Origin: Sipunculus nudus
Taxonomy: Eukaryota; Annelida; Sipuncula; Golfingiida; Sipunculidae
DNA: 64,000 nt
Direction of reading: 5' to 3'
Assembly: GCA_026874595.1 (NCBI GenBank)
Contig: CM049306.1
Location: 39,370,019-39,434,018 of the forward strand
Part shown: piece after piece, positions 363 to 50,537 of the stretch
How positions within the stretch are numbered: the stretch's first letter is position 1
Layout: each line of letters opens with the position of its first letter
The notes under the pieces: generated by a model
The model's database searches: none
What the model was told of the DNA's origin: nothing
What the model saw: the letters and a program-made list of their open reading frames with translations, nothing else
Program-made: the position numbers and the translations under genes

Positions 363-3265
363 AGCGAACCTGTGAGCTTATGCGATGGTGTAGCGTCGTC
401 CGGCGTCTGTCATCCGTCGTCTGTACGTTAACCCATACTATCTTGAAAACGGCAAGAGTTAGCATTACAAAATTTTATGCAAAAAATTAATCATCTAAAA
501 AACTCCATCGGATTTTGCTTATTTTTTGGCTAACTGCATTTTCTTAGATTTTATAGGGAAAAAGCTTAAAAACCTTTAAAAATCTTCTTCTCTGAAACTG
601 TTGAGCCAAATTGTCCAATATTTCACAGAAATGATCTCTGGAACAATCTCTCTCAAGTTTGTTCAAATGGTTTAAGTTTGGTGATTTTTGGCTGAGTTAC
701 AAGAAGTTAAACTTAGTCATCTGTCCAAAAAAGCATACTAAAATTACAATCTCAGAAACTGCTGGAGCTATCATCACCAAATTTTATTGGAATGTTTGTC
801 ACATGAGTCATATCTGAAATTGAGGTATTGGTGGCGCCACCTGCATCAGCCTTTTTTGTACGGGGTCATCAGTGCCCTTATCATACTGAGGGCTACAAAA
901 AACTTCTTCTCTGAACCATATGGCCAAATTGTTTAATATTGCACAGAAATGATCTTAGGGTACTGCTTTCCGAATTTTGTTCAAATGGTCTCAGTTAAGT
1001 GACTTTTGGCTGAGTTATGGGAAGCTGAATTTAGCCATATGCCATGACAGCCCATTTTAGCTCAGTGGCTAAAAAGATCTTCTTCTCAAAAACCACTGGG
1101 CCAAATTCTTAAATCTCACACATTAATTATCCTTAGATGTTGATAATTCAAGTTTGTTCAAATGGTTTTGGTTCAGTGATTATTGGCCGAGTTATGAGAA
1201 GCTTAACTTAGCCATTTTTCTGTATTTTCCTTATAAGAGTTATAAACCTGCAAAACATTTTTGTGGGACACAACTGAGGTTAATTTGTTTAATATTTTAC
1301 AACAACTTGGGCTAGCATCATGAAATTTAATGTAAAAAATTAGCCATCTGAAAAACTCTGCATTTTCTTAGATTTTATTGAGAAAAAGCTAAAAAATTGT
1401 TTAAAATGTTCCCTCCAAAACTGTCTAGCCAAATTGTTCAATATTTCACAGAAATAATCTCTTATACCATCGCTCTCAAGTTTGTTCAAATGGTTAAATT
1501 TGGGTAAATTTTGGCTGAGTTACAGGAAGTTGAATTTAGTCAATTGTCTAAAAAAGCATACTAAAATGACAATCTCAGAAACGGCCGGAGCTTTTGTTAT
1601 CTGCATATACTTAAATTTTATAGGGAAAAGGCTGAAAAACCTTTATAATTTTAACCTCTTTCAGCTGATAATGTTTATAATGAAACTGTCAATTTGAATC
1701 GTTCAGTTTTTCAAAAGAATTATCCTAGGACATGGTTCTTTCAATCATATAAGAATAGATTGAGTTTGTTGATTTTAGGTTGAGTCGTGAAAAGCTTATG
1801 GCCATTATTATGTCTATTTCAAACTGAGGACAGCAATAGTGTTCTTCTACAAAATTGTTGTTTCAATTATAACTTCTGTGACCTTGCACAAAAATTATTC
1901 TTAGGTGGCCTTTGTTCAAGTTTACTTGAATGATTTTTGGCAGAATTATTGGACCTTTAGCAATGAAGGAATTGCATCTTTTATTATTATAGATATTTTT
2001 GGTAAAAAGTTTATGAATATGTCAGCTTGAAAAAAAGCATTTTAGCCAAAGTCTTTCAGTATGTTTAAACAGATTTACCAACAGGCAAAGATTGTGTCTG
2101 TATCATTAAATAGGTTGAAAAACTGCCAACTGTTTCAGATTTTGCAACAGATCAAGAGTTCATTCAGTGCAGCCAGATATAGGTCAAGAGTTCAGTCAGT
2201 GCAGCCAAGCACAAGGCATGTGATCACTGCATGGGTGTCATGTGAACACCTCATGGCCAGCATGTGATCACCTCATGTGTAGCATGTGATCACCTCATGG
2301 GTGTCAAGCCCCACAGGGTTGCATGTGGAGCCAATCTGTGAGCTTATGCAATGATGTGGCTACTATTTCAGATTTGGCAACAAGCGAAAGGTCAGTCTGG
2401 ATCAATTTATAGCTTCGGCATACTGCCAACTGTATCAGAATAGGTAACAGGTCAAGAGTTCACTCAGTGCAGCTAGGTACAGGTCAAAAGTTCACTCAGT
2501 CTAGCTAGTTCACTCAGTGCAGTAGCTGCATTCTATTAATGGCGTTGGCAGACTGCCCACTGTGTCAGATTATGCAACAGGTCAAGAGTTCACTCAGTGC
2601 AGCCAGGTACAGGTCAAAAGTTCACTCAGTCTAGCCAGGTGCAGGTCGTGAGTTCACTTAGTGCAGAAGCCTGAGCTAGCAATTTGTCACAGTTCACTTG
2701 GGGCAACTGCCTTTCTCACCTAAGCCTGGTCAGCCCCATGCATCAAACTCAAGGTAAGTCTGATGTATTGGCCTGATATATTTGCCTGTCTGTGATGGCT
2801 TTCTTGTTCACAAGACAGGTGTCGCAACCTACAATGACTTTTGCACAATGTATGTGCCTCCTTACAGAGGAATTTGATATAATCAGCCTGAAATTGGGCA
2901 TATTTATACATATCGAATAGCTTTGTCTTATACAAGACTGGTGGTGCCACCTACAATAATTTTTGCACAGTGTTTCCCTGCTTATTTCTCAGGAGGGGTT
3001 TGATATATCAGTCTGAAATTGGGCATATGAATATATCTCTGATAGCTTTGTTGTATACAAAACTGGTGGTGCCAGCTACAATCATTTTTGTGTTGTGTGT
3101 ACCCATACGAGAATTTCAGCAGTGATGTTTGTGTAATTGTTTCTTATTCAAAATGTTTAGTACTTGCATTGTTCATATACATGAAAAGTAATGGTCCAGT
3201 ATTGAAGAATTATACCTGGTGTATTTCCAAATGCACAGGTTCGCATTAGGCCTGTAAGCCTTGTT
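363..3265 (+). mobile_element. Element A, copy 1 (Helitron/Helentron-like, non-autonomous)
   Basis: The 5' end is AGCGAACCTGTG (GCGAACCTGTG at 364-374). Its exact reverse complement CACAGGTTCGC lies at 3234-3244, followed by a short imperfect hairpin (AGGC...GCCT) and the tail TTGTT. The body is modular: several diverged ~150-170 bp units at about 590-1555 (each with 'caagtttgttcaaatggtt' and 'ttttggctgagttac'-like blocks), a GGTGGCGCCACC palindrome at 830-841, a 32-bp minisatellite at about 2150-2670 ('gagttcactcagtgcagc'), and three ~115 bp units at 2730-3140 with 'ctggtggtgccacctac'. No reading frame resembling Rep, helicase or transposase is visible. It is the same family as 8980-12090 and 7717-8143. 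Family assignment is by architecture only. Confidence 0.7.
2150..2670 (+). repeat. 32-bp minisatellite inside element A1
   Basis: The core 'gagttcactcagtgcagc' followed by 'caggtacaggtca' recurs about every 32 bases, in several blocks separated by less repetitive sequence. A short 'catgtgatcacctcatg' repeat (2215-2300) is embedded. The same repeat occurs in copy A2 at about 11240-11480, so it belongs to the element rather than to the insertion site. Confidence 0.7.
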
Positions 3266-6200
3266 TTTATAGGAAAATATAGGAACTATAGAGAGTCGAT
3301 GGAACACTACCTGTAAAATATTTGTTTTTGTGTCATGTATGTTACTAATTTTACCTACTAATGTGGAAAACATCTAGGTAAACACCTTTCAAACGGATTG
3401 ATACAAAATGAAAAATGCCTTTCAGTGCACGTGTTTGCCTGTCTGAGACAGGCAGAAAGGTATAATACAACCCCTGATAATGATATCGGTAATAAAACAG
3501 TTTAGCCCCTGGGTATTATAAGAATTTTGTTTTCATGACGCAAAGAACACTTAATTTTTCTCAAGCATTGAAATGTTCATTCTTTTCATGGACTTAAGAA
3601 TATTACTTTTTTGTTAAGACAGTTTGGTGTTAGGATACAAAAGAAAATATCCCCCAGGACACAAGAAGGAACTCCATTTTCTGCTTGACACATTAAGAAT
3701 TAATGCTTGCTTGGATACAAAGGAAGCTAAATTCTCTGTAGGGCAAGTGAGAATGTTCATTCTTAATAAGATAAAATCAAAACTTTTCTTCCCAGGAGAC
3801 AAAGATGAACTTATTTTATACAGGGCACATTGGATTATTCATTAATAATTCTTACCAGGACTCATGAAAAAATTCAGAATACTTAGAAAAAATAAAACAT
3901 ATTTCCCCAAGGAAAACTAATGATTTAATATGAATGGGGTTGGTTACTAAATATTTCCCTGCAATACGGATATGTAGTACCACATAATAATACATGAAAC
4001 TAATTATCTTTTACACAAATAAATGATCTAGTTGATATAACTTCTGTAGTGAGAGCATTACAGTATTATAATTTTTAAATCATATTTGGAAAATGTAGTC
4101 ATATCAAGCTCCATGATTCCATTGATGATTTAAATAATATCTCTTGGTATATAATATACTCTTCTTAACGATACATTGTTGTGCTGAAAAAAGCACAATG
4201 TGAGGAAGCTTTCAGTTGCAGGATATTGTATTTGAGAATTTATAATATTTACCACAATTATTCTATCAGTATTTATCAAACATTTCAAATACAGCAAAAT
4301 CCTATTTGTTAAGCTCATAAATAAACTATCAAGAAATATATATTCATTTTATGCAGAACTTCAAATACTGGCTGTCGAATATGAGTCAGTTTTAAATATA
4401 CTGTTTGTTCTGGGGGAATGTAAGAATACAGAACTTGGAAGGGAAAACTAAGTATTAAACTTTAATAAAGAGAATGATTCTTAGAATTATTTGTGATAGA
4501 ATTCTTAGGCAATTCTGAATTATGAATTTCCCAGGAATTTTATATTCTAAGTTTACCAGGATTCTTTATCCTCTCAGGTGACAATTCCACAGAATGTTTA
4601 CTGTTTTCGAGCAGGAAAAGATTTGTATAGTTTCTGTGAACTGACGTTGTTTACATTAAGATGAGTAACATCACTGTGCAGTGCCTGGGCAACCTGACCC
4701 AGCAACCTGACAATTAGCAGTAAGTTAATGTTAATCCATCATCGTTGTTAGCAAAGTTGGCTAGATGAGAGGGACTAATTAACACACTGTGGACAGAACA
4801 GACCCAAGACAGGAAGAGACATTAACTTCTTTCCTGCGAACTGGTGACAGAGTTGGCAGTTAAATCTGTGACAATTTGAGGTTGCCATGGCAACAAGGAG
4901 GTTGGTGTCAGGGCAGTGATGGAGAGTGGTGGGCAGCAATGCCAGCGGCCTGACAGGCTGGCACAGGGCTGACAAACCAGAATCTAATATTGACTGCATG
5001 ATAGGCGTTACTGCAAGAACAACAAATCCTCACGCTGCCATTTTCTTGTCCAGCATCGACTAATGCTGAAGTAAATCACGGTCACTGGACTGAGCGAGGG
5101 GAATAGGGTCTCCTGCCATCTTTGAACTCTTCCTCCCAGAAATTCAATTTACCATCCAAGTTTTAATAGCTCGGCCTGGGCCTTAATTGAGGTTGACCTC
5201 TGTGGTAATTGAATTAACCAATCATAGTTCGGTGCAGCACTATTCATCTAATTTCAATTGACGTTTTGGAACATGACAGTTTCCATTGCATTGTGGGTTT
5301 TTCTCCTTTTACACTGTCAGATTATGGATCTTCAGATGCTAAATTTCAAATCTTAAAATGTTAGTATAAAACACAAAATCTTTTATAAGGCTGTCTAATT
5401 TGTACGGCATGTAAAAGATAGGCATGTAGACTTAATCAAATTAAATATTATATTTAATATCTGACACAATGGTTTATGTTTCAGAACTGGTTTAACTTAC
5501 TGTCAGTATTACAGGTCAAATATCACAAACCTAATCAAACTGGCCTTGGTGAAAAATTTTTTCTGCAGAATATGTAACCCCTAATTGGAAAGAAAACGGA
5601 AGATAAATAACTTGCTCAATTTATTAATAAGATGTAGACATATAATACAACCCTGACATAATTGAGTTTTCAGTACTCTAGAAAAGGTCATAAAAATAAA
5701 ATTACATTTTAATTAAATAAAATATCATTCATAGGTCTTTTTTTAATACAGTCCAAGAATAATCATTAAACCCAAATGCTGATATATATGTGTATGTGCT
5801 TGAAAACCCCTTGTGAGTTAACTGTAAAACTCATTTGTCATACTTGGCATAAATGCCTATGTGCATATATATTATATGCTTGAAAGTTGCCGTAGAAGTG
5901 AACTCGATGCATGGGATGTGCATTAATATAGGGATTCCCAGCAAAATGTTGTCAGTCTTGCAACTTTTTATAATGAAAGCCTACCATGTTCAAAGGCTGA
6001 CATTTTCCTCACAGTGTGTATATATGCATTTATTAACTGGCCACACATGTAATCATTGGGACACAGAGGCAACAGCATGCATGATACAACATGTCATTCA
6101 AGGTCCATATCAATGCCTGTTGGGCGATATTGCTTATACACTTGTTTAAATCAGTTGGCTCATATCAGCCCACCACTCAGTGCACTCAGTAAAACAAGGC

Positions 6201-7716
6201 CCCAGAATGAAATTGACAAACATCACAATTAATGTGGCATCACTATTCCTGGAATGAAAAATTGGTAAGCATCACTGGCATGCGACATCACTCTGCTCTG
6301 TGAGGCACCACCCAGGGATGAAACTGACAACAACATAGGACCCTTAAAATAAAAAAAAAAATCAATAGGACATACTTTTCTGCTTGTCACTTTCAAAATA
6401 ATATGATAATTTCAGAGAAAATACATTTGTGTATATCATACCTATTATATTCAGTTATTTGCAGATTTCAAGATAATTATGAAAAAAAAACTCCTGTCTT
6501 TGACTAACAGGGGTACTTTTATTGAAAGCTGGTTCATTTGTGTTTGACTTAATACTTCATGAGAAAATGTATCATATATCACAGAGAGTGATCTTTATTT
6601 CACTGTTCCAGGTCTGTTATTTAGATTGTGTATCTAAAATTGATAAAATTCTATGCAATATACTCACCAATGAACATGAACATTATCTGGTTTATAATGA
6701 AGCTTTTGACTTCTAATTCAGCACTAAATAATTCTTGTTGAACTGCACATTTTCCAGGAACTAAATCAGTCCTTTCTTTTGATGGAAAATGCATGTGAAT
6801 TTTTTAAGTAAAGTCTTCCCCAGGAAATCTTTATATCAGTGGGTTTTCAGTTGTGGGTTTTCAGTTGTAAATATGTCTGATGACTGAATTACTCATTGCT
6901 ATGGCTGTGTGTGGCCGACTGATTACTTTCTTTATGGTAACAATTCAATGCAATCTTTTGTGGCATTTTAGCTGAGCAATCTCTGACATACAAGACAATT
7001 CTGTATTCCTGAAAGATGTGAGAAAATATCAAATAAAGCATCTTCTTTCTAATGAAAGGGCTCTGTGATCAAGTTTAGCAGCATTTCATATATATGTCTG
7101 AAACTAAGACTACTTTTAAACATAGCTATCTCATCATTCCAAAGAGTGTACCATAATAAATGATAAAAGTTTTAATGTTGGGGTATGCATTTGCAAAGAG
7201 TTGTAATGATAGTAAAGAGTTGAATATTGACATTTTGTTGGGTTTATTTAATTACTGTTTATTTAACTTACTTGAACCTGGAATGTTCTTCAGTATATAA
7301 TGCAACTGGATATTGTTGTGTTAACCCTATTTCAAAAAGCATGTAATAAAATGTGATCTGACTTTGATATTTTGTTCAAGAACTTTTTGTATGATCAAGG
7401 ATGGTTACAGTATTGCCTGAAAAATTAGGCCACTTTGACTTCATTATTGGCTGTAAGAGGAAATAGTAAATATTGCAGAAATGGATCCTGAGAGTAATCT
7501 GAAGTAATGCATTCAGTAATTTATTGGATTTACTCTTACATTCTACCACTTTTATGACCATAAGGTCATAAGGATGGGATATTTTATATTTTTAGCTCAG
7601 CTGACTATAAAATATCTTCTAGACTTTTAGACACACCGTCTAGATGCAGAATGCCCTGATTAGAACTAATGGAACTATATCTTTCAGTTGTTTGAAAAAA
7701 CTTTGTTTGCAGTTTA
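3266..7716. other. Intronic sequence, mostly unique
   Basis: No coding exon was recognised. Visible content: a less AT-rich stretch at about 4600-5280 that could be a conserved or regulatory island (inference only); a degenerate repeat at 6200-6330 with 'atgaaa.tgaca' and 'catcac' recurring at roughly 50-60 bp; and a 15-bp tandem duplication near 6840-6868. Short open frames here have no recognisable domains and AT-rich, intron-like composition. Confidence 0.5.
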
Positions 7717-8143
7717 AGCAAATCTATGAGCTGTGGCATCGTCTGTCGTGCGTCATAGCTATCTCAAAATGGGCAGACTATAGCATCACCAAATTTTTTG
7801 CAAAAAATTAGTCATCTTAAACATTCTATTGTATTTTGCTTATTTCTTGGCTAACTGCATTTTCTTAGATTTTATAGGGAAAAAGCTAATAAAAAACATC
7901 TGTCCCAATAATCCTAACTGGCAAAAAGAACATATCCAAAATATCCTGACTGATACATCCTAGTTTTAAAATGTCCTTGTCTGAAATGTGCAGGTCCAAA
8001 ACGTCCATTTTGCTGAAATCGTAATGACCAAGGTAGATATGTAGAACATAAGAGGATCAATATTAAATTTTAAAAATAAACCTCCATGACATTTCTTACT
8101 CCCAAACTTTGCACAGGTTTGCATTAGGCCTGTAGGCCTTGTT
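7717..8143 (+). mobile_element. Element A, copy 3 (short, internally deleted)
   Basis: The 5' end is a decayed version of the A terminus (AGCAAATCTATGAGC), and about 180 bp match the A head ('ttttgcaaaaaattagtcatct', then 'gattttatagggaaaaagcta'-like text). The 3' end is CACAGGTTTGC (8112-8122), then a clean hairpin AGGCC-TGTA-GGCCT, then TTGTT. The middle (about 7895-8090) is unrelated to A1/A2. The result is a ~430-bp MITE-sized derivative of the same family. Confidence 0.6.
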
Positions 8144-8979
8144 TCCTGTTAGTACTAATAATTTAATTTTCACAGCATGTAGAGGTAAGTATTTAATCTG
8201 TGTAAATCTGTAATTTGAAAATAAAAGCTAAAAATTAGTATAGTAAGTGAATTTTATTTTTTGAGGCTCTGTGTATTCACTAGGTTGCATTGTCCAGCTG
8301 CAGTCAGGTCACTTCTAGTCACATGAGGTCAGCTATCCAAGGGTACCTGATTTGACATGGGCCACTTGGGAAGATCCCCTGCTGTGACAGGTGTACAGTT
8401 ATTTCATATCTTCATCCCATCCCATCCCCCCACCCCGCCACAATTGGGAAATGAATGGAAAAAAAGGCTTTGTCTGTCCTGTATGTATATGCAGAGGTGT
8501 TGTAGTTTCCACCATTCCCCCTTCCCTGCCATTGAGTCCTTGCACCTGTGCACTCGGGGGAAATTAGTGTTATTGCAAATGTGTAAAAACTATTAGATTA
8601 AAAAAAGTAGTATTGGTAAATTATTAAGATCTAATTGAAACATTCTTTATTCAGGAGAAGGGGACACAAAGTGATCACCTCTGTCTACCCGACATCTCTC
8701 TGTTATCATTAAATACAAATTAATTATGAACTTTTTTTCTATAAGCACTCTTGAAATAATTTTCATATGCTGTATACATATGGATTTAATCTATTTATGT
8801 TTGAAATTTGAAAGCAGCTAATATATGCAGATATTTAATATTGCAAATGCATACAATTTATAAACTTTAAATCAAATTGATAAAATAAAAAAATTAAGAT
8901 CTAATTGAAACATATATTATTTTCCTGCCTCAACAGAATGGGAGATAAAGTGATCAGCTTTGTGTACCAGCCTGTTTTT
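8144..8979. other. Intronic spacer between elements A3 and A2
   Basis: AT-rich unique sequence with a C-rich tract (about 8408-8440). The phrase 'aagatctaattgaaacat' occurs twice (about 8627 and 8896), followed each time by sequence mentioning 'aaagtgatca', which suggests an old local duplication. A possible 9-nt microexon at 8176-8184 is listed separately. Confidence 0.4.
8176..8184 (+). other. Candidate 9-nt microexon (speculative)
   Basis: Nine bases lie between a TACTAAT branch-point-like motif plus 'ttttcacag' acceptor and a consensus GAG|gtaagtat donor. It lies upstream of, and on the same strand as, the supported exon at 14353. Nine bases is in-frame (His-Val-Glu in one frame). Similar acceptor-9 nt-donor arrangements occur by chance elsewhere (for example near 27784-27792), so this is only a flag. 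Confidence 0.15.
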
Positions 8980-11900
8980 AGCGAACCTGTGAGTTTATGC
9001 GATGGTGTGGTGTCGCCCAGTGTCTGTCGTCCCTCGTCCGTCGTCTGTACGTTAACCCATACTATCTTGAAAACGGCAAGAGTTAGCATCATGAAATTTT
9101 TTTGGGCCTTTTTTGTATGGGGATTATCAGTGCCTGAATCATACTGACAGCTACAAAAAACTTCTTCTCTGAAACAATATGGCCAAATTGTTCAATATCG
9201 CACAGAAAGGATCCTAGGGTAGTGCTATCTGAAGTTTGTTCAAATGGTCTCAGTTCAGTGACTTTTGGCTAAGTTATGGGAATCTGAATTTAGTTATATG
9301 CCATAACAGCCCATTTTAGCTCAGTGGCATCAAAGATCTTCTCAAAAACCACTGGGCCAAATTCTTAAATCTCACACATTAATTATCCTTAGATGTTGAT
9401 AATTCAAGTATATTCAAATGGTTTTGGTTCAGTGATTTTTGGCTGAGTTATGGGAAGCTTAACTTAGCCATTTTGCTTTATTTTCCCATATGAGTTATAA
9501 ACCTGCAAAACATTTTTTGACTGACGCCACTGAGGCCAATTTGTTTAATATTTTACAAGAATAATTCCTTGAATAATTCTTATAAAAATTGTCTTTTATG
9601 GTTCCGAAGAATGAATTTTGGCTGAAATTTAAAGATTGAATTGAGTCATTTTACCATATATGTTAGCTGTGTGAAGCAGATACATCTAGCCTGGCACCAG
9701 TTTATCAGCATCTGTTACATCATACCTCCAGACATTTAGATTTCAGGTTATCTATGGTTAATATTGACAAGAATATTTTTTTAAAAAACTTTTAAAAAAT
9801 GTAGATTTATGAATTTAGATATTCCTCATGCCAGGCAATGTTTACAAGCACAGGTATACGTTAACCCATACTATTTCCAAATCGACTGGAGCTAGCATCA
9901 TGAAATTTAATGCAAAAAATTAGCCATCTGAATAAATCTGCATTTTTCAGATTTTATAGAGAAAAAGCTAAAAAACCTTTAAAAATCTTCTCCTCCGAAA
10001 CAGTCAAGCCAATTTGTTCAATATTTCACAGAAATAATCTTTTATACCTTCTCTCTCAAATTTGTTCAAATGGTTCAAGTTCGGTGAATTTTGGCCAAAT
10101 TACAGGAAGTTGAACCTAGTCATCTGTCCAAAAAAAGCATACTTAAATGACAATCTCAGAAACAGCCAGAGCCATCGTCACCAAATTTTATGCCAGTGTT
10201 GGTCACATGAATCATATATGAAATTCATGTATTGGTGGCGCCACCTGCATTGAACTTTTTTTGTACAGGGGTCATTGGTCAACTGTGTATTAACCCATAG
10301 ATTCCAGACGATAACTCCAGGTTGGATTGGCACATGGAATTCAAACTTGACCTAAGGCCCACCACTAAAGCAAGAACCTATATGGTTTTGGGGTCATGAG
10401 GTCAATGGTCAAGGTCACAGGACTCACTTAATTAAAAAGATTATGGCTGCATTTTAAGCCAAGCTTTTCATCCCAAACTTTCCATCTTGCGCATTTAGCT
10501 GACTTGCCAGTATGGGGAGAGCATAAATTAATTTGGGGTCACAAGGTCAAAGGTCAAGGTCACAGGGGCCATCTGTTCACAAATGAGTTTCCAGATGATA
10601 ACTCCAGTTTAGTTTGACATATTGGTTTCAAACTTAACTTATAATGGCCCACCACTAAAGTAAGAATCATGTCGATTTTAGGGTCCAACAGTCAAAGGTC
10701 AAGGTCACAGGACCAATTTCTTTAAAAGAAATGTGTATGCATTTGAAGCCAAACTTTTCATCGCAAACCTTCCTTCTTCAAGATATTGCTAACCTGTAGA
10801 ATTTAAGGGTTATCTGGTCAGAGGTAAAGGTCACTTTTTAAAAGATTGTTACAATAATCCTAATGCTGCAAGTTCAAGGATATTAAGTTCTAAGATTTTT
10901 TGGTCACAAGGTCATTGGTTAAGGTCACAGGACTGCCATTCTGAAAAAAATTCTTAAAAAATATTCTTATAGACATCTGTATTATAATTTTTGCATACAG
11001 TGTGCATCTGTAATAATTTTACATATATTCCTGATTTCTTTTTTTTTATGAAAAGTCAGCTAAAAAGCATTTTGTATTGGGAAAATTAATTTCAAAGTTA
11101 TTTCAAGTAGGGACCATTTTTGTGCACAGATGGCAGCACTTGGTTTACCATTGGCAGATTGCCAGTGCCTTGATGTTGGCCATTAGTCAAGATAATGTCA
11201 GCTCCGTAAATAGGTTTTGCACAGTGCCAGGATTAGAAGAAGTGCAGCTAGGTATAGGTCAAGAGTTCACTCAGTGCAGTAGCTGCATTCTATTTATAGC
11301 TTTGGCAGACTGCTCACTGCATCAGATTTGGCACCAAAGTTAAGCCTGGATGTATTTATAGCTTTTATCAGACTGCCAACTGCCAGATTATGCAACAGGT
11401 CAAGGTTCACTCAGTGCAGCCAGGTACAGGTCAAAAGTTCACTCAGTCTAGCCAGGTGCAGGTCAAGAGTTCACTCAGTGCAGTAGCTTGAGGCAGCAAT
11501 TTGTCACTTGGGGGCAACTACCTTACTCACCTAAGCCTAGTCAGCCCAGTGCATCAAACTCAAGGGAAGTTTGATGTATTGGCCTGATATTTTGACCTGT
11601 CTATGTGTCGTTGATGGTATTCTCATTTACAACACGGATGGTGCCACCTACTTTTTTGCAGTGTATGCACGTGCTTATTTCTACAGAGGAATTTGATACA
11701 TCAGCCTAAAATTGGGCATATTTATACATATTGGGAAGCTTTATTGTGTCAAGAAATGTGGTGCCACCTACAATAATCTTTGCACAGTGTATGTCCCTGA
11801 TTACTTCACATTAGGGGTTAGACATATCAGTCTGACTTTGGGCATATGTATATATCTCTTTGTTGTATACAAGACTGGTGGTGCCAGCTACAATCATTTT

Positions 11901-12090
11901 TGTGTTGTGTGCACCCATGCCAGAATTTCAGCAGTGATGTTTGTGTAATTGTTTCTTGTTCAAAGTGTTTAGAACTTGCATTGTTCATATACATGTTACA
12001 CTTGTTCTTGAAAGTAATGGTCCAGCATTGAAGCATTATACCTGGTGTAATCCCATTGCACAGGTTCGCATTAGGCCTGAAGGCCTTGTT
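8980..12090 (+). mobile_element. Element A, copy 2 (Helitron/Helentron-like, non-autonomous)
   Basis: The 5' end AGCGAACCTGTG starts at 8980. The inverted copy CACAGGTTCGC is at 12059-12069, followed by the hairpin AGGCC-TGAA-GGCCT and the tail TTGTT. The head is closely similar to A1, including 'gtacgttaacccatactatcttgaaaacgg'-type text. Unlike A1, it carries a second 'gtacgttaacccatact' head-like block at 9855 and a distinct central module (about 10265-10930) with repeated 'gataactccag', 'cccaccactaaag' and 'ggtcaaggtcacag' phrases. The 32-bp minisatellite (about 11240-11480) and the ~115 bp 'ggtggtgccacctac' units (11550-11950) are shared with A1. A GGTGGCGCCACC palindrome is at 10234-10245. 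No transposition protein is visible. Confidence 0.7.
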
Positions 12091-19174: not shown

Positions 19175-20792
19175 GTATCCCCAGACAAAGTCGGGGGATA
19201 CTATGTTTTCATACCGGTCCCGCCGCCGCCGCATATTAATCTTGTTGGCGTGATAACTCAGTATGTCACAGATCTTTACCAAACTTGGTATATGTATAGA
19301 TATGGGTGAGAGGACAACGCCTATTTAAAATGAGGTCATGACCTTGAATAGGAGAGTCTCCTTGACCTTGAATAGGTCCAATTTTGGGGAAAATCACACA
19401 AATTCTTAAATATCTCAAGAAATCTTGCATGGATTGATCCCAAAATTAAGTTGATGGAAGATCATGGATAGGGTTGTCATGTTCCAGAACTGGTGGCGCC
19501 ACCTATTATTCTTTACTTGTTTTCGTGCCGTTTAATATCCCCAAAATTGCTACTTGACAGTACTGTGAGCATTATAAGTCAAAAACTAATGGACAGATTT
19601 CTTTTATATTATGCATATACATAGATATGGGTTATGGGATGATGTATATATATATTGGGGTCATGACCTTTTTCTATGAGAGTGGCCTTGACCTTGAATA
19701 TTTCCATATATGGTAAAAATCACACAAAATCATTAATATCTCAATAAGGGATGCATGGATTGGTCCAAAAATCAACTTGACCAAAGATCTTGGATAGTAA
19801 TGTCATGTACCAGAAACAGGTGGCGCCACCTGTTATTCTTTTACTTGTTTTCGTGCCGTTTAATACCCCCATCATTGCCACTTAACAGTACTGTGAGCAT
19901 TATAAGTCAAAAACTAATGCACAGATTTCTTTCATATTATGCATATACATAGACTTGGGTTATGGGATGATGTATATATTTATTGGGGTCATGACTTTTC
20001 CTATGAGAGTGGCCTTGACCTTGAATATTGCCATATATGGTGAAAATTACACAAAATCATTAATATCTCAATAAGGGATGCATGGATTGGTCCAAAAATC
20101 AACTTGATCTTAGATCAGGGATAGTCTTGTCTTGTACCAGAAACAGGTGGCGCCACCTGTTATTCTTTTACTTGTTTTCGTGCCGTTTAAGACCCCATCA
20201 TTGCCACTTAACAGTACTGTGAGCATTATAAGTCAAAAACTAATGGACAGATTTCTTTCATATTATGCATATACAAAGATATGGGTTAGGGAATGATGTT
20301 TATTTAAATTGGGGTCATGACCTTTCCCATGAGAGTGGCCTTGACCTTGAATATTGCCATATATGGTGGAAATCACACAAAATCATTAATATCTCAATAA
20401 GGGATGCCTTGATTGGTCCAAAAATCAACTTGACCAAAGATCTTGGATAGTGTTGTCATGTACCGGAAACTGATAGCGCCACCTGTTGTTCTTTTACTTG
20501 TTTTCATGCTGTTTAATACCCAATCATTGCCACTTAACAGTACTGTGAGCATTATAAGTCAAAAACTAATGGACAGATTTCTTTCATATTATGCATATAC
20601 ATAGACATGGGTTAGGGGATGATGTATATTGAAATTGGGGTCATAACCTTTTCTGTGAGAGTGACCTTTTCTATGAGTGTGGTCTGATATTAATTGTTGC
20701 TGAAGACGGGGGGCCTATTCTTAAAGGAGGGGGGGGGGGGGGATTAATTGTCTGGGGATACTAGGGCACCTGCGTTGCCAAGAAATGTCTAG
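19175..20792 (+). mobile_element. Element B (Helitron/Helentron-like, non-autonomous)
   Basis: The 5' end is GTATCCCCAGAC (19175-19186), which pairs at 11 of 12 positions with GTCGGGGGATAC (19190-19201) to make a terminal hairpin with loop AAA. An exact inverted copy GTCTGGGGATAC is at 20750-20761 near the 3' end. It is followed by a weak hairpin (GGCA...TGCC, about 20765-20779) and the tail CTAG (20789-20792). The head continues 'tatgttttc' and a CCG-repeat, as in element C. The body is three ~327-bp tandem units plus partials, with GGTGGCGCCACC at 19492, 19819 and 20146. A G-homopolymer (20726-20742) sits just before the inverted motif. No protein-coding capacity is apparent. If the end is instead set at 20761, the flanking TA pair could be read as a mariner-like duplication; I consider that less likely given the parallels with C and D. 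Confidence 0.7.
19515..20640 (+). repeat. Tandem repeat of period ~327 bp inside element B
   Basis: The phrase 'acttgttttcgtgccgttta' begins at 19515, 19843 and 20170, and with two changes at 20496: spacings of 328, 327 and 326. Each unit also carries 'aagtcaaaaactaatg', 'gtggccttgaccttgaat', 'tggtccaaaaatcaacttga' and a GGTGGCGCCACC palindrome, which is degraded in the last full unit (20465-20480). High similarity between units implies recent amplification. Confidence 0.85.
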
Positions 20793-23293: not shown

Positions 23294-24468
23294 GTATCCG
23301 CCAAAACAGAGTTTTGCGGATACTATGTTTTCGGCTGGCCGCCACCGCCGCGTAGGTGTCCGGAGAACTCCTCCGTAACCGCTGGGCGGAATTTTACAAA
23401 ACCTGGGATTATGTTCGGGTCACATGTGAACTGATGCGCCCCGATTTTGTTTTGACCTCTGACCTTTCCTCTGCGCTCTGCGTCCGTTTGTGCGTCTGTT
23501 TCCACACATAAACCCACATATCTCGGGAACCGTTTGACCGATCAGGCTAAAAAATTTACACAAATGTAGCCCTTGGATAGCTTTATAACATACACAAAAA
23601 ATGGTGGCGCCACCTGCAACCTTTTTTGAACAGTGTCCATCTGTTCATCTGCCTTGGGATAAAATCAGTCATATCTCTGCATTGGTTGGACTTATTCACC
23701 TGAAATTTGGCATGCGTATACATCCTGGATAGCTTTTCGGATTTTATGACAGGTGGCGCCACCTACATTCATGTTTACGCTGCAGACATCCAAGCTCATA
23801 TCTTGGGAACCGTTTGACTGATCAGGCTAAAAATTTTATACAAATGTAGCCCTAGGATAGCTTTATAAAATACACTAAAAATGGTGGCGCCACCTGCAAC
23901 CACTTTTGCACAGCGTCCGTCTTTTGTCTGCCATGGGATAAAATCACTCATATCTCGGCAGTGGTTTGACATATCTGCTAAAAATTTTGCAGGTTTATAC
24001 ATCCTGGATAGCTTTTTCGATTTTATGACAGGTGGCGCCACCTACATCCTAGTTTATGCAGCAGACATCCAAGCTCATATTTTGGGAACCGTTTGACCGA
24101 TTGGGCCAAAGTTTTGCATGTGTATAGTTCTCACATAGCTCTTTATCATACGCAAAACTGGTGGCGCCACCTGCAACCATTTTTGCACAGCGTCCATCTG
24201 TTTGTCTGTCGTGGGCTAAAATCACTCATATACAGGTAGTGGTTTGACCTTTCTGCCTTTAATTTTGCATATGTATACAACTTGGACGGCTTTCTGGTTT
24301 TTGTGGTAGGTGGCGCAACCTACATACACAATTTGGCTGCAGACTTCCATGCTAATATGCAACACTTCACTCTATTTCCCCTTGCCACTCAATACATGCC
24401 TCACTTCACCCGTTCCACTCTGATTTAGGCGGATACACATAGTCGCTTGTCGACTACCCGTATTCTAG
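23294..24468 (+). mobile_element. Element C (Helitron/Helentron-like) inserted in the minisatellite
   Basis: The 5' end GTATCCGCCAAAAC (23294-23307) pairs with GTTTTGCGGATAC (23311-23323) as a terminal hairpin with loop AGA. The inverted motif GGCGGATAC is at 24428-24436. A perfect 6-bp-stem hairpin TAGTCG-CTTGT-CGACTA (24440-24456) follows, then 8 bases, then CTAG (24465-24468). The head shares 'ggatactatgttttc' with element B. The body holds about three ~280-bp double units with alternating GGTGGCGCCACCTGCAACC and GGTGGCGCCACCTACAT blocks, the palindrome being exact at 23603, 23752, 23883, 24031 and 24160. The flanks are the same 34-bp minisatellite on both sides, so the boundaries are well constrained. 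No coding potential is seen. Confidence 0.8.
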
Positions 24469-27947: not shown

Positions 27948-28014
27948 GGATTCACTTCTGAAGCAATAAAGTATCCTGCTGGAGTTTGATTCTGGTTAAA
28001 ACCTACACAGATTG

Positions 28015-34987: not shown

Positions 34988-36019
34988 AGCCCTCAGCCCT
35001 TAGGCTGATGGGCTATTGTCGTCACCCAAGCTGTCCGTCCCTCCGTCTGTCCGGCGTCTGTTAACTTTTACCTTGGGAGCGGGATATCTTGAAAATGATC
35101 CACCGTCAGATTTTTATTTCCTCGGTAAAGATGTATATCGACAAAATCTCGGTCAAGTTCGAAGATGGGTGACCTTGACCTATTTTTCTTTATTTTAGAG
35201 CTGATTATAGAAAAATACTTAGATGCTTATTACTCAGGAACGATTTGGTGGATTTTCACAAAACTTACTATGATTATTAGGACTGATAGCCTGTACCTGC
35301 CACACAAGTTTGGTGGCCCCATCTACAATTTCTGATTTTTTATGAATTTTTATCGGATTTTTCAACTTTTACCTTGTGAGCGGGATATCTCTAAAAGAAT
35401 TCACCGTAGGAATTTTATTTTTTGGGTGAAGATGTATATTGACAAAATCTCAGTCAAGTTCGAAGATGGGTGACCTTGACCTATTTTTCTACGTTTTAGA
35501 GCTGATTATAGAAAAAACATTTAGAAGCTTATTTCTCAGGTACCATTGGGTGGATTTGCACAATACTTACTATGATCATAGGGACTGATGGTCTTTAACT
35601 GCTACACAAGTTTGGGGGCGCCACCTGCAATTTCTAATTTTTAATGAATTTTTCTTGGATTTTTCATTTTGGGCCTTGTGAGCGGGATATCTCTAAAAGG
35701 ATTCACAATAGGAATTTTATTTCTTTGGTGAAGATATAAATTGACAAAATCTCAGTCAAGTTCAAAGATGGGTGACCTTGACCTACTTTTCAAGGTCACA
35801 GAGCTTATAATAGAATAAAACTTAGATGCTTATTTTTCAGGAAGCATTTGGTGGATTGTTATGAATCATGGTACATACCTCTCAATTTTAAATTTATAAC
35901 TGAGACATGTACAGATATACATCCATGTTAGAACAGATATTAAGTACTTGTTACTGTTACCACCTCTAAACACTGTTCTTTTGGCTGAGGGCTTTTGTCA
36001 GCTTCTGCTGATATTCTAG
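34988..36019 (+). mobile_element. Element D (Helitron/Helentron-like, non-autonomous)
   Basis: The 5' end AGCCCTCAGCC (34988-34998) pairs across loop CTTA with GGCTGATGGGCT (35003-35014). An exact inverted copy GGCTGAGGGCT is at 35983-35993. It is followed by the hairpin TCAGC-TTCT-GCTGA (35998-36011), then TATT and CTAG (36016-36019). The body has three ~310-bp units beginning 'ccttgtgagcgggatatct' (about 35073, 35373, 35682), with 'gatgggtgaccttgaccta' in each. One variant palindrome GGGGGCGCCACC is at 35614-35625. The layout is the same as in B and C despite different sequence. No coding potential is visible. Confidence 0.75.
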
Positions 36020-39668: not shown

Positions 39669-39770
39669 CCAATCAAATGACAAGAATGATTATTTTTATC
39701 CAATCAAAAGACAAGATTAATTATTTTTATCCAATCAGAAGACAGTATTTATTATTTCACCCAATCAATT
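39669..39770 (+). repeat. 31-bp minisatellite with four CCAATCA cores
   Basis: CCAATCA occurs at 39669, 39700, 39731 and 39761 (spacings 31, 31, 30). Each of the first three is followed by 'a.a.gacaag/t', a TTATT stretch and the next unit. CCAAT is the NF-Y core; a three-helical-turn spacing would place the sites on one DNA face. Whether any factor binds is unknown. Confidence 0.75.
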
Positions 39771-42700: not shown

Positions 42701-45700
42701 CAAGTAATTGATAACGTTGTCATTGAATTGCCTCTGGCAGTCTCAGACCATCTAAGTGGTTGTCATAATATGGGCATAATATTATCTAGTGCCTTAGATA
42801 ACTGCCGTCGATGTGCTCGTCACTGAGTTGGCAGGGGAGTGGCTTTTGCCATGAAGGACTGAAGCGGAGAGGACTTGGCAGTGGTCCCCTGGGGAACTGT
42901 AGCTTTTGATGTCAGAAGATGCTCATATCAGCATCCTCCAGAGAGTGCAACAGCCCAGGGATTTATTGCAGCATGGCAGCAATTTCCCTTTGCGAGAGCT
43001 TTACGACATGCTGCTTTCTGATTATTGTATGACAAGCTACGTTTCTTGAATATCAGCAGAAGATACACGCTGACTTGGTGACGGTTCTTTAGTGAGTATG
43101 TTTTGCATAGTACAGTGATCTCTTGACATTTACAACCATTAGAATTTTAAAGTCCTCAAATTTACTGAATAGTATCTTGACCTGAGCTCTTGTGGCAGTG
43201 TGACATATGATAACGTGGATGTTTCAGATATATTTTGTCCCTTTTGAGGTTACATTTCATAAATAGTTAAGTCCATCAGGTTGGTGGTATGTACATATTG
43301 TATCAGCTTTGTCACTCAGCTGCAAGGGAAGAAAATTTAAAGAAAAAAAAAATGCTCAAACTGGGCAGAGATGTTAGGTACAGATAAAATCAGGATCATA
43401 ATGTGGAATCTGGTTTGTAAGATGCAAATTAGCTTATCCTGTTGGTTTCTGTTTAAACAGGGATTATTGAGGTGGTAATTTACCAGTAATCTCTGTTGGG
43501 TGCTGCATTGGTGTCAGCTTGTATTAAAGGTATTGTATCTTTTACCAATTTTAGCTTAATTGGTGGTTGTATTTGTAATTTTTAATCACCAGAATACCAG
43601 AAAAATAATTGTTTTAAGATAAGTACTTCTGCATGAAGATGTTTTTAACAATCATACTGGCATCTACAGTGGCCTCTACAAACAGTGCTACACCACTTTG
43701 TTTTTTTTTTAAATATTATACTTTCTTTCAGGACAGACAGACCAATACGTTACCTTTTTTGTACCCTTTTTATGGCTAGTTGTTAATCTATATACAATTA
43801 TCATCCTCAAGATGTTTATTTTAGACCCTTCACATATATCGTTTGGAAGAAATTTAGAATAATAATAAAGACTTACTAGGAGGTGTGCTTCTTGATTATT
43901 CACAAAAGTGACATGGATTTCAGTTTTACCTGGACCTCAGCAGTAAGCAACAAAATGACTAAAATATGCAACAAGTGGACTCAATCTGTAGCTCCTCACA
44001 AAATTTAAGATGTCACTAATAATTTAAAAATTTAAGATGATACATACAAACATAACATTCTACAGTATTTTGATCTGATATTTTTATTGCATGATCTTGA
44101 TAAAATCCAGTTCGGCAATACTGGAGAAGTTTTTGTCTTTTGGTACTGTTTTTCTTACTCTGGTTGTATCAGATAAATTAAAACAAATATCTGCTACCCA
44201 TGCACTATTGATTTATGGTTAATTTCATAGATTGTAAATTAAAAGTTTCCACCAGCAGCTTGGAGCATCCCCTTCTGAGAGAAGTTGTTTCTCCCAAAAA
44301 CAATCCTCTTCGAGTTTGGAATTGTGGGGATGAACTGGACTACTTTTCTCAACCATCAACCCTCAAACTTAAAAATAAAAATTTTATAATATTTCAACTA
44401 AACACAAAATGTTTTTCAAAATATTACTTTTATGGTGAGGTCCTTACCACAAAAACACCCATGTTAATGTAATTTGTTGTGAAACAGTTCTTGTCCAACG
44501 TATTTGAATGGACTACATCACTATCTTTACTACATATGTACCTACGCAAAATGGGTATTCGAGGCCCCAGTGCATCGTGGGGTTTAGATTTCAATTCCAA
44601 AAAACACTACCCAACAGAATCATATTCTGGGCAGTGTGCTTGAAGCATTGAAAGACAAAAAGATTGAAATTGTGCATTTATCTTAATAATATGGTCCCCA
44701 CAGAGAGTACTTTAGAAAGCAGGCAAGCATGGGTGATACTGTGGTGTGGTAGCCGCGGTCTCTTCAGAAATATGTTTTTTTTTTTTTCACAGAAGAAATG
44801 ATAACTTCTGGTGGCAGGGTGCTTTATAATATGAGTGGCCTTGTTTTATTGCATAGTTCAGAACTGTAGAAAAAATGATGATGGTATAGAGCTTGGAGAG
44901 CACAGTGCAGTTATTACACAAGATGCAGTGACAGGTCGGAATGGGAATTTCAAGCACGGCGCTGCTTCCCAGAACCAGCGACGTAATAAGTTGGGCTGCA
45001 AGATTTCAGTAAATCACTGAGGAAGCCCTGCTCTATGGAGGGTCAGAACCAGCACTGATTGTGGTTTCTGTGGATGATCTGTGTTCTGTAGGCAGATTTA
45101 TAATGATAGAAGAGAGTGTTTGTAGTGCCCTTACTGCAAGAAGAGGGGGCACCAGGACCTAGCCTGATATAGTCAGGCAGGAAATGAAGCAGCACCAGGC
45201 TGTCTCTGGCAGCTGTCATTTTACGACAAATTTTAGTAGGACATTGTGCCAGTTTTGACTTGCTGCATTGTGGAAGCTGTATATTTCTAGGACACCAGGG
45301 ATTTTCACCACTTATTGTTTGATTAAGTAAACAGCTTTTTTGAGATAAAGAATAATTAAAGGATAATCTGTTGTGGAAGATGGCTCAGCCAAACCTAATA
45401 CACATTTAGTCCATGATAACCAGAGATGGATTTGCAGCAAGCTTAGGGCTTTGAATATGTCATGTCAATGACACTTCTGATTTTGTCTTGGATTTCCTGA
45501 GAGATTTAGATTGAATCCATCTGGCCATCCCTTGAATTCCATATGTGGCATAATTTCTGTCATATTTATGATATAGGAGTCCTTGCTTGTGCCCAAAATT
45601 GCTGTAACTATATAGTGTGTTCCATCCCATCATGCCCACCTATTTTGCACTACAGTTTTATAGTTTACCTTTTTTGGGATAAATAATAATATAAGTTAGA

Positions 45701-46827
45701 AGATTAATAGACCTAATTTTCAACAAGGAATATACACTTACCTTGCATAGATTTAAGGAATGTAATTATTTTAAAATTTGATAAATCAGATGTAACAACA
45801 TCAGGTTCAGCCCCACTGATGGCCAGCTAAAACAAAGATGGTTACTCATGCAGGGACACATCTTATCTGTTATATCATTGGAAATAGTCAAAAAAGATGT
45901 AAAACATAAACTGGAAATTTATTTTAAAATTCATGATTGCCATTTTATGCCTTTATGTTCATATGGTGCTTTCTAGTATATTAAAAAAAATATATACTTC
46001 TAAGAAAATTATCTTTGTACATGTTCCTGTTCCTGTTCCTAAAAATAATGCAAACATGAAAATGTAACCAAAACACTTTGTTCACTTACGTGTGCCTTTA
46101 AAATACCAATTATAACTATTCAACAATGCATGTCATTTAATTTCATTATTTTCAACAAATATATGAGATGCATTTAAATGATGACAAATTAAATGTTATA
46201 CTGGTCAATGAAATTAAAATGAACAGTCCGAGTGTGGTTAGGCACTTCTTTCCATTGTTGCCAGCCTTTACCTTATTCTTGCGCCCCCTGGTGGTGTAAC
46301 CAAATCCCAGAGTTGGTTACTTTTTACTTAAACAATAAACAGGAACATGTTCGTGTTCCTAAGCAAAAATGGTCTGTGTTCATGAACAGAGGTATGAACA
46401 GGAACATGTTCGTGGAACGAAAACACACCCCAAGTGGACACAAGTTGGTGGAACAGAGTATAACCAATGACCACAACCTAAAGCTATTAAGTTGATAATA
46501 AAAATGATCTTTATGAGACTTTTTTTTGCAGTGACACCTATATTGGGATTCATTTATGTTATTACAGATCATAATTTTCCTGGTACTATAAAAATGTTAA
46601 ATGTTTAAAATTTAATGAGAACATTGACAGGTTTGTATTTAATAATAATTACAATACTTTAGTGTCTTTGAAATTTTATGGGATTATGTAGATGTAGTCA
46701 TAAAATGTATCATTAAAATGCAAATTTCACATGGGCACATTATTTGATAATCCAGACAAGAATTATGATAAATTGTGAACAACAAGATCTGATCTTCAAG
46801 CACCAGACTGTTTCAGCATAACTGTTA
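39771..46827. other. Intronic sequence, mostly unique
   Basis: No exon is supported. A less AT-rich stretch at about 42000-43080 and another at 44860-45260 stand out and could be conserved or regulatory islands. A 61-codon + frame ending at 45020 sits in the second but lacks convincing splice sites. A short triplication of 'gttcct' is near 46023, and repeated 'gaacatgttcgtg' phrases lie at 46340-46420. Confidence 0.4.
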
Positions 46828-48383
46828 AGCCGGGTGCTCACTACCTGATTTTATCAAGCGACATTGTCGGGCAATATTTTGGGCAGATTTTCTCAAAATC
46901 GGCTGAAAATCGGCTCGGCTTAGTCAGCTGATTTTCAGTGTCACATTTACCGACGCGCATGTTCCCATCTCTCGATTATCACCGAATACGTCTCATCATG
47001 GCAATCTGATATACTGAGCTTTCTAGGAGAAAAACCAAAAGGAAATATTTGTTCGCTTTGTGGCTTATCCAAAGAAATATGATGTATCGGAAGAGTGACT
47101 AGTGGGTAATCCTTAGCTTGAGAGATTAGAGGAACTAGGGGCATTTAAACAATATACACTTGTATGTGAATTGAGACAGGAGGTTTAATCGTCCATCATC
47201 AATTTGAAGGTTTTCTCCGCATATCTCAGGGGCGGGTCCAGGATTTAGGAAAAGAGGGATCCAACCCAGGAGTACTAATAATAAAACCTAAAGAAAGGTC
47301 CCCGGAAAATATCCGAAAGAATTGGTCTTAAACCCTTAAAATGATTGTGGCGGGTGATCTGTAGGATTTGTAAAACAAAACATCCAGCATCAGGATACTA
47401 CATTCAGAAGGACTATTTCACCAGAAACGGACTCTAATTTAGAAAATGACATCCTTCTTGCATGTTTGTGTGATTTCTAGGATTTCCTGTTCTAGAAATT
47501 CCATGATGCTGAATTTATTTATTTTATCCTGTGTAAACCAGTCAACACTTGATCATCCTTTTTCATTTGACTGCTATACACAAAATAAACGCCAACAGCA
47601 GCAGATATTTTGCGTGATTAGGTTTTAATTTTTATGATTAAATCCTGTAGACAAGTGATGATCAGTTATATATCTGGCGACTCTCTGTTATCTGTCAGAT
47701 TGAATATATTAAAACTAATTAAAGTACAGCATCGCCAAAAAATTCCGCTGACTCCGTGAAAAAAAGTGTACCAGAGACCCGTTCACGTGAACGCTTTTGC
47801 CTATGGGGTTACCTGTAAACATCAGGTATTGCTGCATGTGCTCGACTGGATATTGCATCAGTCAAAAGTTTTCAGCTATTCTTTCATGTCTTCTCTCATT
47901 TCCTCTAACGTTCAGTCTTATATTTACAGAAATGTTGGCACATTGTAATTATATGAATGGATATTCCTTTACAATGATGAATAAATTGCACGTCGTCTTT
48001 TAGGACTACATCAAATTTTAATCTTTACCAAAATTGGTCTTTAATTCTTTTTAAAATACAGAAATATGTCATTGTACAATATGCATTAATAATGACTTAT
48101 AGTGACAACTTCCAGAGCGTGAATTCTGACCATACACAAATAAACAAAATCGGCCGACTTTATCGCAAACATTGGCTCACTACACAATTTCGCTAATAGC
48201 CCAATAAAATCTGCCGGTTTTCTTTTACAGTGCCAGACTCTTGGTGACGGCGATTTTTCACGCCGACGCCGACAAAATCGTGTCAATTTTGGGTGTCACA
48301 CTTCACGACAATGTACCCCTGTCAGTACATAGTCGGCCGATCCTATGAGTCGGCTGATAAAATTGGTAAGTGAGCTGCCGGCT
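46828..48383. mobile_element. PIF/Harbinger-like DNA transposon remnant or MITE
   Basis: The ends AGCCGGGTGCTCACT (from 46828) and AGTGAGCTGCCGGCT (to 48383) form 29-bp terminal inverted repeats matching at 23 positions. TTA directly flanks both sides (46825-46827 and 48384-48386), as expected for the 3-bp TWA target duplications of PIF/Harbinger elements. Subterminal regions are rich in 'aaaatcggc' and 'gtcggc' motifs in both orientations. The interior (~1.5 kb) contains 'ggggcgggtccaggattt' at 47230 and no recognisable DDE transposase or Myb/SANT frame, so the copy is non-autonomous or decayed. Confidence 0.65.
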
Positions 48384-48386
48384 TTA

Positions 48387-49762
48387 GAAAAATGTTTTCT
48401 GTTTTTAGCACCCATTTGAAAATTGACCACCTTTCTGATTTTGTTACCTTAAAAATTGGATGAAATCACATGACTTGTATTATTACAATGATTACTTTGA
48501 ATACTGACTCATATTAACATATAAAGAAATATAAAAGGTACATGAAAAAATCTAATAATAACAGGTCATTATTTCTTTCAGTAACTGAACATGATTTGAC
48601 AACCAATTTCTACCTTATTTTAAGTATTAAAGGTTTCTCCAGGCAGCCAGCTCTGCTGTACATTTTGACTGCCAAGAGTTCATGTTATTAGAAAATTTAC
48701 TTCAGTAGGTTTTAATCAAATTCTGTGAAAGAGCTGTTATCTTGACATAATCCCAGTGAGATTATTCTCATCTCATTAACACCCCACACATGTTTAATCA
48801 CTAATTTGTGGTACTGATCACATTCCAGATAATCCTGTCTGCTTAAATTAACTATTTCTTGGAATTGGAGTCACTGCCTCTTCATTTATTGAACTATAGA
48901 CTTAAGACCAGTGTTCAGATAATGGGGCTGTCCCACTTAGGCCACTCTACAGGCGACTACAGGTGACCAGGCTGTCCCCTCATGGTCGCTGGGGGGTCTC
49001 CTATATGATCACCTGTAGTTGCCCAAAGTGGCCAAAAGACACGTGGCCTCTTACCTGTCACCGCTGGATTTTCAATCAATTTTCTCATGCACTGCAAATG
49101 TCAATTTTAACACCCCTCATCAACATTTTGATTTTCAATAGAATCTTACTAATTCTGAGCTCCAGCTGCTCTGACATTTCTTTTAAGAAGATAAAATAAT
49201 ACGATTTTAATAAGATTTCCTTTGTTATGTAGTGCTTTTACCTGTTAAGCAAAACAATTCTGTTATTATCATGCTTTCACAGATCATATGACATTTTTAT
49301 TTGTACATACAAAAAAGGGTAAAAAAAAAATAGCCCTCGCGCACTGATTTCTGAAAAAAGTACCTGAGAACCGAACCTTTTTTTTTGGCCTGAGGGCTGT
49401 TTTCTGTAACTTTATGGGTATATGACAGTATATCACTATATTTTCCCATTGATTGTGACATGCAACCTGTGACATCTGGGTTTTAGTATGTACCCAAAAT
49501 GGCAGCCCCCATGAGCGATCTCAAGAACAGGGAGAAATAAACCTGTCAGGGTTCAATAAGGGTGTAGGGCTGACACAAATGTACTCAGAAGGACAGCATC
49601 CAGGTGATTTCTGTCTACGAAAGGAGTTTGATGGCAAGGGAGGGTGTAGCAGCAAAGTTAGAGCAGAATAATCCTTTTTTTTACCAGCTCCAAATCATCA
49701 AATTTTAGTAGGAATCGGCTGTTTGCTTTTAAGAAGCCCGTATGTGATGGGACTTAATATGG
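48387..49762. other. Intronic sequence, no recognised gene
   Basis: Unique sequence with a short less AT-rich patch near 48935-49060. The region 49683-49735 ('tcatcaaattttagtaggaatc') is repeated in changed form at 50550-50600, flanking element E on both sides. Confidence 0.4.
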
Positions 49763-50537
49763 TATATACCCACCAGCCGGCCATCCATCTGTTAACTTTT
49801 ATTGTTGCTGGGATAACTTACCAGAGCTTTGATGGATTTTCACGAAACTCCCCAAAATTACTAAACAATAGAGTTTGATTATGGACAAATACCATGCATG
49901 TGTAATAATGTCAAAGGTCCTTGCCAGTCGAGGCTACTTTGTGGTGTCCCTGCGACAACTTATGAGGAATAAGATGGATTTTTTTATAAAACTCAACAGA
50001 AATGTTAATCCATGAAATATCTCACTTAAGGTCAATTTCCAGCAAAATCCTTGCATCTTTAATGAGGTCAGAGGCACTGTGGTGACTCACCAAAAATCGT
50101 TTGGATTATCATGAAACTCATAACACTTATTTACCAATAATTTCTCACCTCAGTTTAGTTCTCAGCAAAATCCATGCATATTAATGAGGTTAGAGGTCAC
50201 CAAGCTGATTTGTACAGAAATATATTGGATTTTCATAAAACTTGAAATATTAATTTGAAATAGAAATATTAACCAATATAATCTCACCTAAGTTCTATTT
50301 CCAGAAGAAAGCATGCATGTTTAATGAGGTCAGAGGTCACCACACTTTTATGGCACCACCCTGACTTACCAAAACTCTTATGGCTTTTCCTAAAACTCCT
50401 GATGAGTATTCACCAATACAGTTTCTCACCTGAATTACATTCTCAGCAAATTCCCGCATATTTAATGAGGTCAGGGATCACAATTAAATTATGCAATGGG
50501 TGTGTTATATAAATGCACCAATTGTGGTGCTCTTGTT
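49763..50537 (+). mobile_element. Element E (Helitron/Helentron-like, non-autonomous)
   Basis: The 3' end has a clean hairpin GCACC-AATTGT-GGTGC (50515-50530) followed by TCTTGTT. Just inside lies GGTGTGTTATATA (50499-50511), whose reverse complement approximates the proposed 5' end TATATACCCACC (49763-49774). The body repeats 'tttaatgaggtcagaggtcacc' four times (about 50058, 50174, 50321, 50461), together with 'ctcac.t.agtt.tatttc.agcaaaatcc' text. The 5' boundary is the less certain end. A direct repeat ('caaattttagtagga') flanks the element on both sides, about 860 bp apart. Confidence 0.5.

Follow-up and report, generated by a model that had tools for sequence, protein, structure and literature searches.

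The window analysed here, a stretch of 64,000 nucleotides of the Sipunculus nudus genome (C1:39370019-39434018; G+C content 35.6%), contains copies of five repeat elements, termed A to E, whose coordinates are compiled in Table 1. All five are members of large non-coding families, and the style of the repeats gives a mollusc-like impression. In the scanned genome (1.43 Gb, 153 contigs) exact matches to terminal sequences were counted with the reversed patterns as controls, which yielded 0-72 matches across motifs. The 5' 12-mer of A was found 6919 times (control 72) and its 3' 30-mer 4031 times (control 0); for B we counted 8973 copies of the 12-mer (control 51) and 2263 of the 3' tail (control 0), for C 393 copies of the 3' 18-mer and for D 1430 copies of the 5' hairpin sequence (controls 0).

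A preliminary description of this DNA had assigned a 5' motif to each element and proposed that the five families share one terminal architecture, with an inverted copy of the 5' motif shortly inside the 3' tip. All five motifs were indeed found at the positions given there. Inverted copies could be located for A, B, C and D, and the ends of these four families are sharp, with thousands of exact end copies. The common architecture thus holds for A to D at both ends; for E, the right end alone was borne out.

Table 1. Repeat elements and associated features of the window (a slash marks an element border)
Feature	Position	Strand	Remarks
Element A copy 1	363..3265	+	5' AGCGAACCTGTG; 3' CACAGGTTCGCATTAGGCCTGTAAGCCTTG/TT; inverted repeat 3234-3245
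Short A copy	7719..8143	+	inverted repeat 8112-8123; A 3' tail intact; degenerate 5' end set by eye
Element A copy 2	8980..12090	+	TTTTT left flank; inverted repeat 12059-12070
Element B	19175..20792	+	ATT left flank; 5' hairpin 19175-19201; ~326-bp central repeats
Element B 3' part	inverted repeat 20750-20761	+	tail ...GTCTAG/TT
Element C	23294..24468	+	ATT left flank; 5' hairpin 23294-23323; ~278-bp central repeats
Element C 3' part	inverted repeat 24428-24436	+	3' hairpin; tail TATTCTAG
Element D	34988..36019	+	T-run left flank; 5' hairpin 34988-35014; ~301-bp central repeats
Element D 3' part	inverted repeat 35983-35993	+	hairpin; tail TATTCTAG/TT
Element E, corrected	49731..50537	+	probable 5' end after TTTT at ~49727-49730; 3' hairpin GCACCAATTGTGGTGC; tail TCTTGTT
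47-bp imperfect direct repeat, left copy	49682..49728	+	ends just before corrected E 5' end
47-bp imperfect direct repeat, right copy	50538..50584	+	begins at first base after E 3' end
GGTGGCGCCACC, example	23603..23614	.	internal palindrome
GGTGGCGCCACC, further exact copies	830, 10234, 19492, 19819, 20146, 23752, 23883, 24031, 24160		near-matches in A, D
C within A, site CAATCATT/../TTTTTGTG	L004, L012, L015, L023, L029, L030, L070, L073, L076, L090

Terminal structures and target preferences

In A, B, C and D the inverted repeats are asymmetric, the 3' copy lying 20-32 bp inside the 3' end (20 bp in A, 26 bp in D, 31 bp in B and 32 bp in C). Between this copy and the end, a hairpin is visible in all five elements; in the window, A and B carry mutations that most members of their families lack. 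For C, the stem could be examined in 35 copies: each of its pairs is kept in 91-100% of them, slid pairings reach only 0-3%, and the most variable pair occurs as G-C, G-T and A-T. At the other end, B, C and D form strong hairpins, with the 5' inverted repeat absorbed into the fold (z -5.45, -5.74 and -4.05, respectively), a feature which the preliminary description had not stressed. A has no such 5' hairpin (fold z +2.24). A sequence difference between the repeats of B and C (GTATCCCC versus GTATCCGC) is matched in the hairpin partner as well as in the 3' repeat.

The 5' tips read TT-GTATCC in B and C, T-AGCC in D and T-AGCG in A, and none of the four carries the 5' TC of Helitron1. Two types of tails were found: TCTAG/TT is common to B, C and D, and CTTGTT to A and E. 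The CTRR motif following the 3' hairpin is accordingly present in B, C and D as CTAG, which is the signature end of canonical Helitrons, but absent from A and E, which have CTTG.

Two kinds of target emerge from the flanks: B and C prefer ATT, A and D T-runs. ATT precedes B in all 12 copies read and C in 12 of 14, with an A at position -3 in 24 of the 26 left flanks of both families and a T directly after CTAG. The right border of B is ...TCTAG/TT in 10/10 copies read, and among the first 100 matches listed genome-wide its right flank is TT in 96, TC in three and CA in one. For C, ...TATTCTAG/TT was seen in 26 of 27 copies read, the exception being the window copy (ATG). The left flank of A is TT in 19/19 copies read, extended to TTTTT in 12; its right border is ...GGCCTTG/TT in 37 of 39 copies read and TA follows in the other two. 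Of 83 exact D copies in the overlap of two listings, about 76 (a hand count) are preceded by TTTT. Full-length D was read in two copies, that of the window and one at locus L079, which agree in their ends and span 996 and 984 bp, respectively. B and C have their first and last segments (GTATCC...GGATACTATGTTTTC) as well as their target in common and are sister families.

Some further arrangements were observed. A tandem array of B with shared intervening flank occupies C1:1407094-1422070 (L054-L064). At L079 (1501-2600, minus strand), D lies directly behind a C 3' end (...TATTCTAGTTTTT/AGCCC...). Within the window, a short stretch at 49331-49400 has D-like inverted ends (TAGCCCTC...GCCTGAGGGCTG) and is possibly a very short relative of D.

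Insertion sites, joined ends and the borders of E

When the flanks of inserted copies were joined, paralogous empty sites (92-96% identity) were recovered for B in A, for C in A and for the window copy of C, which is inserted in a 34-bp minisatellite that is itself the source of empty sites. The gap at each of these sites comprises exactly two bases, TT; at the minisatellite site one of the two right-flank bases is changed. An A inside another A is compatible with an empty site as well, but noisier. A filled B or C site has thus gained the stretch from GTATCC to CTAG plus TT; these two Ts may belong to the ends of the element or stem from a duplication of 2 bp. That a TT duplication is required is contradicted by the two A copies whose left flank is TT and whose right flank is TA. 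The absence of target duplications, a check proposed in the preliminary description, was confirmed insofar as nothing longer than TT was found in about 30 paired copies located outside a tandem array and the minisatellite, with the TT itself being ambiguous for B and C; E, with its direct repeat at both borders, departs from this picture.

At 17 places in the genome the 3' end of A is joined head-to-tail to an A 5' end (control 0), in ten of them with exactly TT between the two ends. Three of these junctions fall within 53 kb on contig C11, so the 17 places are not all independent. According to a rough estimate, random insertion into TT sites would yield less than one A-A junction. Head-to-tail junctions have been taken as support for rolling-circle movement (PMC5876387).

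The 5' end of E had initially been placed at 49763. The motif at this position, TATATACCCACCAGC, occurs only once genome-wide, in this very copy, and the relatives retrieved with positions 49680-49900 mostly begin at 49718-49745, upstream of that tip. An element starting at TATATACCCACC was therefore rejected, and the inverted pair proposed for E lost its support for the same reasons; in the hairpin test, no fold was obtained for the claimed tip. The true 5' end probably lies about 32 bp upstream of this motif. Placement of the tip at TTTT/AAGAAGCCCGTATGTGATGGGACTT is consistent with the start points of the relatives, and we predict a 5' tip at TTTT/AAGAAGCCC with an ATIR of its own. The 3' end at 50537 fared well: most of the 39 other best copies found with positions 50420-50640 stop within about 3 bp of it, and the E 3' hairpin is strong (z -3.8).

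The two copies of the repeat bordering E are identical at 39 of 47 positions, a divergence similar to that among E copies (79-83% identity for most best hits). In this single case, the repeat could represent a long target duplication, or E could have inserted between two tandem copies; no long border repeat of this kind was seen in other copies checked outside tandem arrays. From window position 50588 onward, about 50 bp behind the E 3' end, a degenerate A-type 5' end follows.

An internal module common to A, B, C and D

Elements A to D also have internal sequence in common. The palindrome GGTGGCGCCACC has 20 matches in the window (<=2 mismatches) versus 0.33 expected, and all 20 (830 to 35625) fall within these four elements, where an internal repeat unit mostly holds one or two of them. 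A literature search gave no description related to this palindrome. The similarity extends beyond it: for the 95 bases upstream, with the palindrome itself excluded, z>3 was obtained in 17-62% of the A/B/C/D comparisons, compared to 2% of the controls. These 95 bases are similar in all pairs among A-D and have the same orientation within the elements.

The preliminary description had regarded the terminal architecture as repeated with independent sequences. This wording is too strong, since B and C share ends and target, B, C and D share a tail, and A to D share the module; shared module and tails imply that the families are not independent inventions. Either common descent or an exchange of internal modules is needed, and the families share ancestry or modules, with diversified ends and two target preferences.

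At about ten A loci read, C elements occupy one identical site (Table 1), which indicates that A was amplified carrying C as a passenger. These loci represent a composite A+C subfamily.

Class assignment and competing explanations

The preliminary description had likened the elements to the Helentron/Helitron2 type. ATIRs, 3' hairpin, sharp ends, insertion at TT with no general duplication of the flanks, empty sites, multi-copy, non-coding families and the presence of Rep-helicase genes in this genome are in line with this assignment; the 5' end and the inverted pair it had given for E found no support. The class definitions were taken from PMC3627910, PMC4067079 and PMC5148889. We consider it very probable that A to D, and E as judged from its 3' end, are non-autonomous, HINE-like rolling-circle transposons of the Helitron2/Helentron branch. 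B, C and D conform to the structural definition of Helitron2 by Bao and Jurka 2013 (PMC3627910), and so does A except for the 5' hairpin. In Helitron2 the 5' ATIR is located at the tip and the 3' ATIR 20-30 bp inside the 3' end, with the 3' hairpin following directly; A to D share this layout, their 3' ATIR being 20-32 bp inside. A 5' hairpin using the 5' ATIR (here in B, C and D), a T-rich target and, normally, the lack of a duplication are further common features (PMC3627910). Unlike Helitron2, A has no 5' hairpin, and B, C and D end in CTAG. A fits HINE in the wider sense (PMC4067079), where the 3' inverted repeat may sit up to 60 bp inside. HINE/DINE-1 elements (PMC4067079) and the Cg_HINE elements of oyster (PMC7492417) resemble our families in that they have inverted repeats in a subterminal position, a palindrome at the 3' end and tandem repeats in the centre, insert at TT, show additional Ts relative to empty sites and reach very high copy numbers, but differ from them in that B and C target ATT, in the CTAG tails and in the shared GGTGGCGCCACC module.

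B and C are unusual, for they combine features of Helitrons or proto-Helentrons (TT, CTAG, A^TT) with the inverted repeats and 5' hairpin of Helitron2. Proto-Helentron-Pi of Phytophthora, with 5' TT, 3' CTAG and A^T insertion (PMC4067079), fits B and C in these respects, but is a large autonomous element of typical Helitron structure, whereas B and C are short, non-coding and equipped with ATIRs and a 5' hairpin. With the canonical Helitron (Helitron1), B, C and D share the 3' hairpin followed by CTAG, and B and C an A^T-compatible target; in contrast, the 5' TC is lacking, ATIRs and a 5' hairpin are present, and A and E have no CTRR. Two or three of the five elements mix end features usually assigned to two different branches of this transposon class. 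An element joining proto-Helentron end chemistry to ATIRs and a 5' hairpin was not encountered in the literature searched, although Repbase entries may hold some, and the end sequences of A-E were matched here to no published element.

Regarding a helper, Rep-helicase genes exist in the same genome: 131 matches to the Helitron Rep domain PF14214 were counted, and open frames reach 2426 aa. Examples of open Rep-helicase frames are those at C11:50385293, C4:36174940, C8:80139053, C13:66180677 and C3:43366583. On contig C1, 12 of the 13 Rep-domain matches are clustered in about 8 Mb (63.9-71.8 Mb). On contigs 1-3, no Rep-domain match lay close to any of the C 3' ends listed. The same was true of the D 5' ends listed for the part of contig 1 that was covered, the nearest D end being 24 kb away. 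The helper of the oyster Cg_HINE elements is likewise unknown (PMC7492417). Several points count against the Helitron2/Helentron reading: the CTAG of B, C and D, the missing 5' hairpin of A, the possible TT duplication at B and C, the 47-bp border repeat of E, the fact that only two D copies were read, and the outcome of the positional check on contigs 1-3 (for D, part of contig 1), in which no autonomous element turned up that has these ends.

Thousands of short non-coding copies, and the TT which filled B and C sites gain beyond GTATCC-CTAG, might also suggest MITEs moved by cut and paste, with TT as a target duplication of 2 bp. This is highly improbable: only one of the two inverted repeats reaches a tip, while its partner lies 20-32 bp inside and invariably precedes a hairpin and fixed tail; the left TT of two A copies is faced by TA on the right; and head-to-tail joined ends exist. 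Symmetric repeats at both tips with a duplication of fixed length were not observed, nor was any general flank duplication beyond TT. The internal 3' repeat and the TT/TA copies of A led us to reject the MITE reading. It is easier to imagine two helpers, with a Helitron1- or proto-Helentron-type Rep-helicase moving B, C and D and a Helentron-type enzyme moving A and E, which would account for there being two tails. The ends of B and C can be read as TT...CTAG inserted at A^TT (see the A at -3 above), much as in Proto-Helentron-Pi (PMC4067079), and A and E end in CTTGTT. Against this stand the ATIRs and 5' hairpins of B, C and D, which the definition of Helitron1 excludes (PMC3627910), the lack of a 5' TC in these three, the combination of a CTAG tail with the T-run target of A in element D, and the module common to A-D; we regard two helpers as possible but on balance doubtful.

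Somewhat more credit, if still short of an even chance, is due to the idea that the internal module was gained by nested insertion or capture between otherwise unrelated families, in which case it would be uninformative on the origin of the ends. Whole C elements do ride in A copies at one site, and among oyster Cg_HINE elements, flanks that differ are combined with central repeats that may be different or related (PMC7492417). Capture sits less well with the 95 pre-palindrome bases being similar in every A-D pair at constant orientation, and with the tail that B, C and D also have in common. Rather unlikely, in our view, is a more specific proposal, namely that B, C and D form a hybrid lineage, with Helitron/proto-Helentron ends (5' TT, 3' CTAG and, in B and C, the A^TT target) on a Helitron2 architecture of ATIRs and 5' hairpin, and that the palindrome module, common to families with different ends, is a functional core on which recognition ends are exchanged.

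For the preferred Helitron2/Helentron reading, end sequences, structures, target preferences, empty sites and joined-end tandem A copies are direct observations; the course of transposition is inferred as follows. A Rep-helicase provided by autonomous relatives would nick the T-bearing 5' end and peel off one strand, and the 3' hairpin would mark the stop. The inverted repeats might pair, in competition with the 5' hairpin, and thereby bring the two ends into contact; an intermediate that is circular or has joined ends would then insert at TT.

Taken together, the families represent a known kind of element; their mix of ends is unusual, and the internal module they share is unexplained. Helitron detection tools based on TC...CTRR miss elements of the Helitron2 type. 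Families in which CTAG coexists with ATIRs plus a 5' hairpin would demonstrate that one type of end does not exclude the other. The presence of several sets of ends and two targets in one genome makes it testable which part of the end governs target choice and helper recognition, and the shared internal module offers a handle on how rolling-circle families gain new ends.
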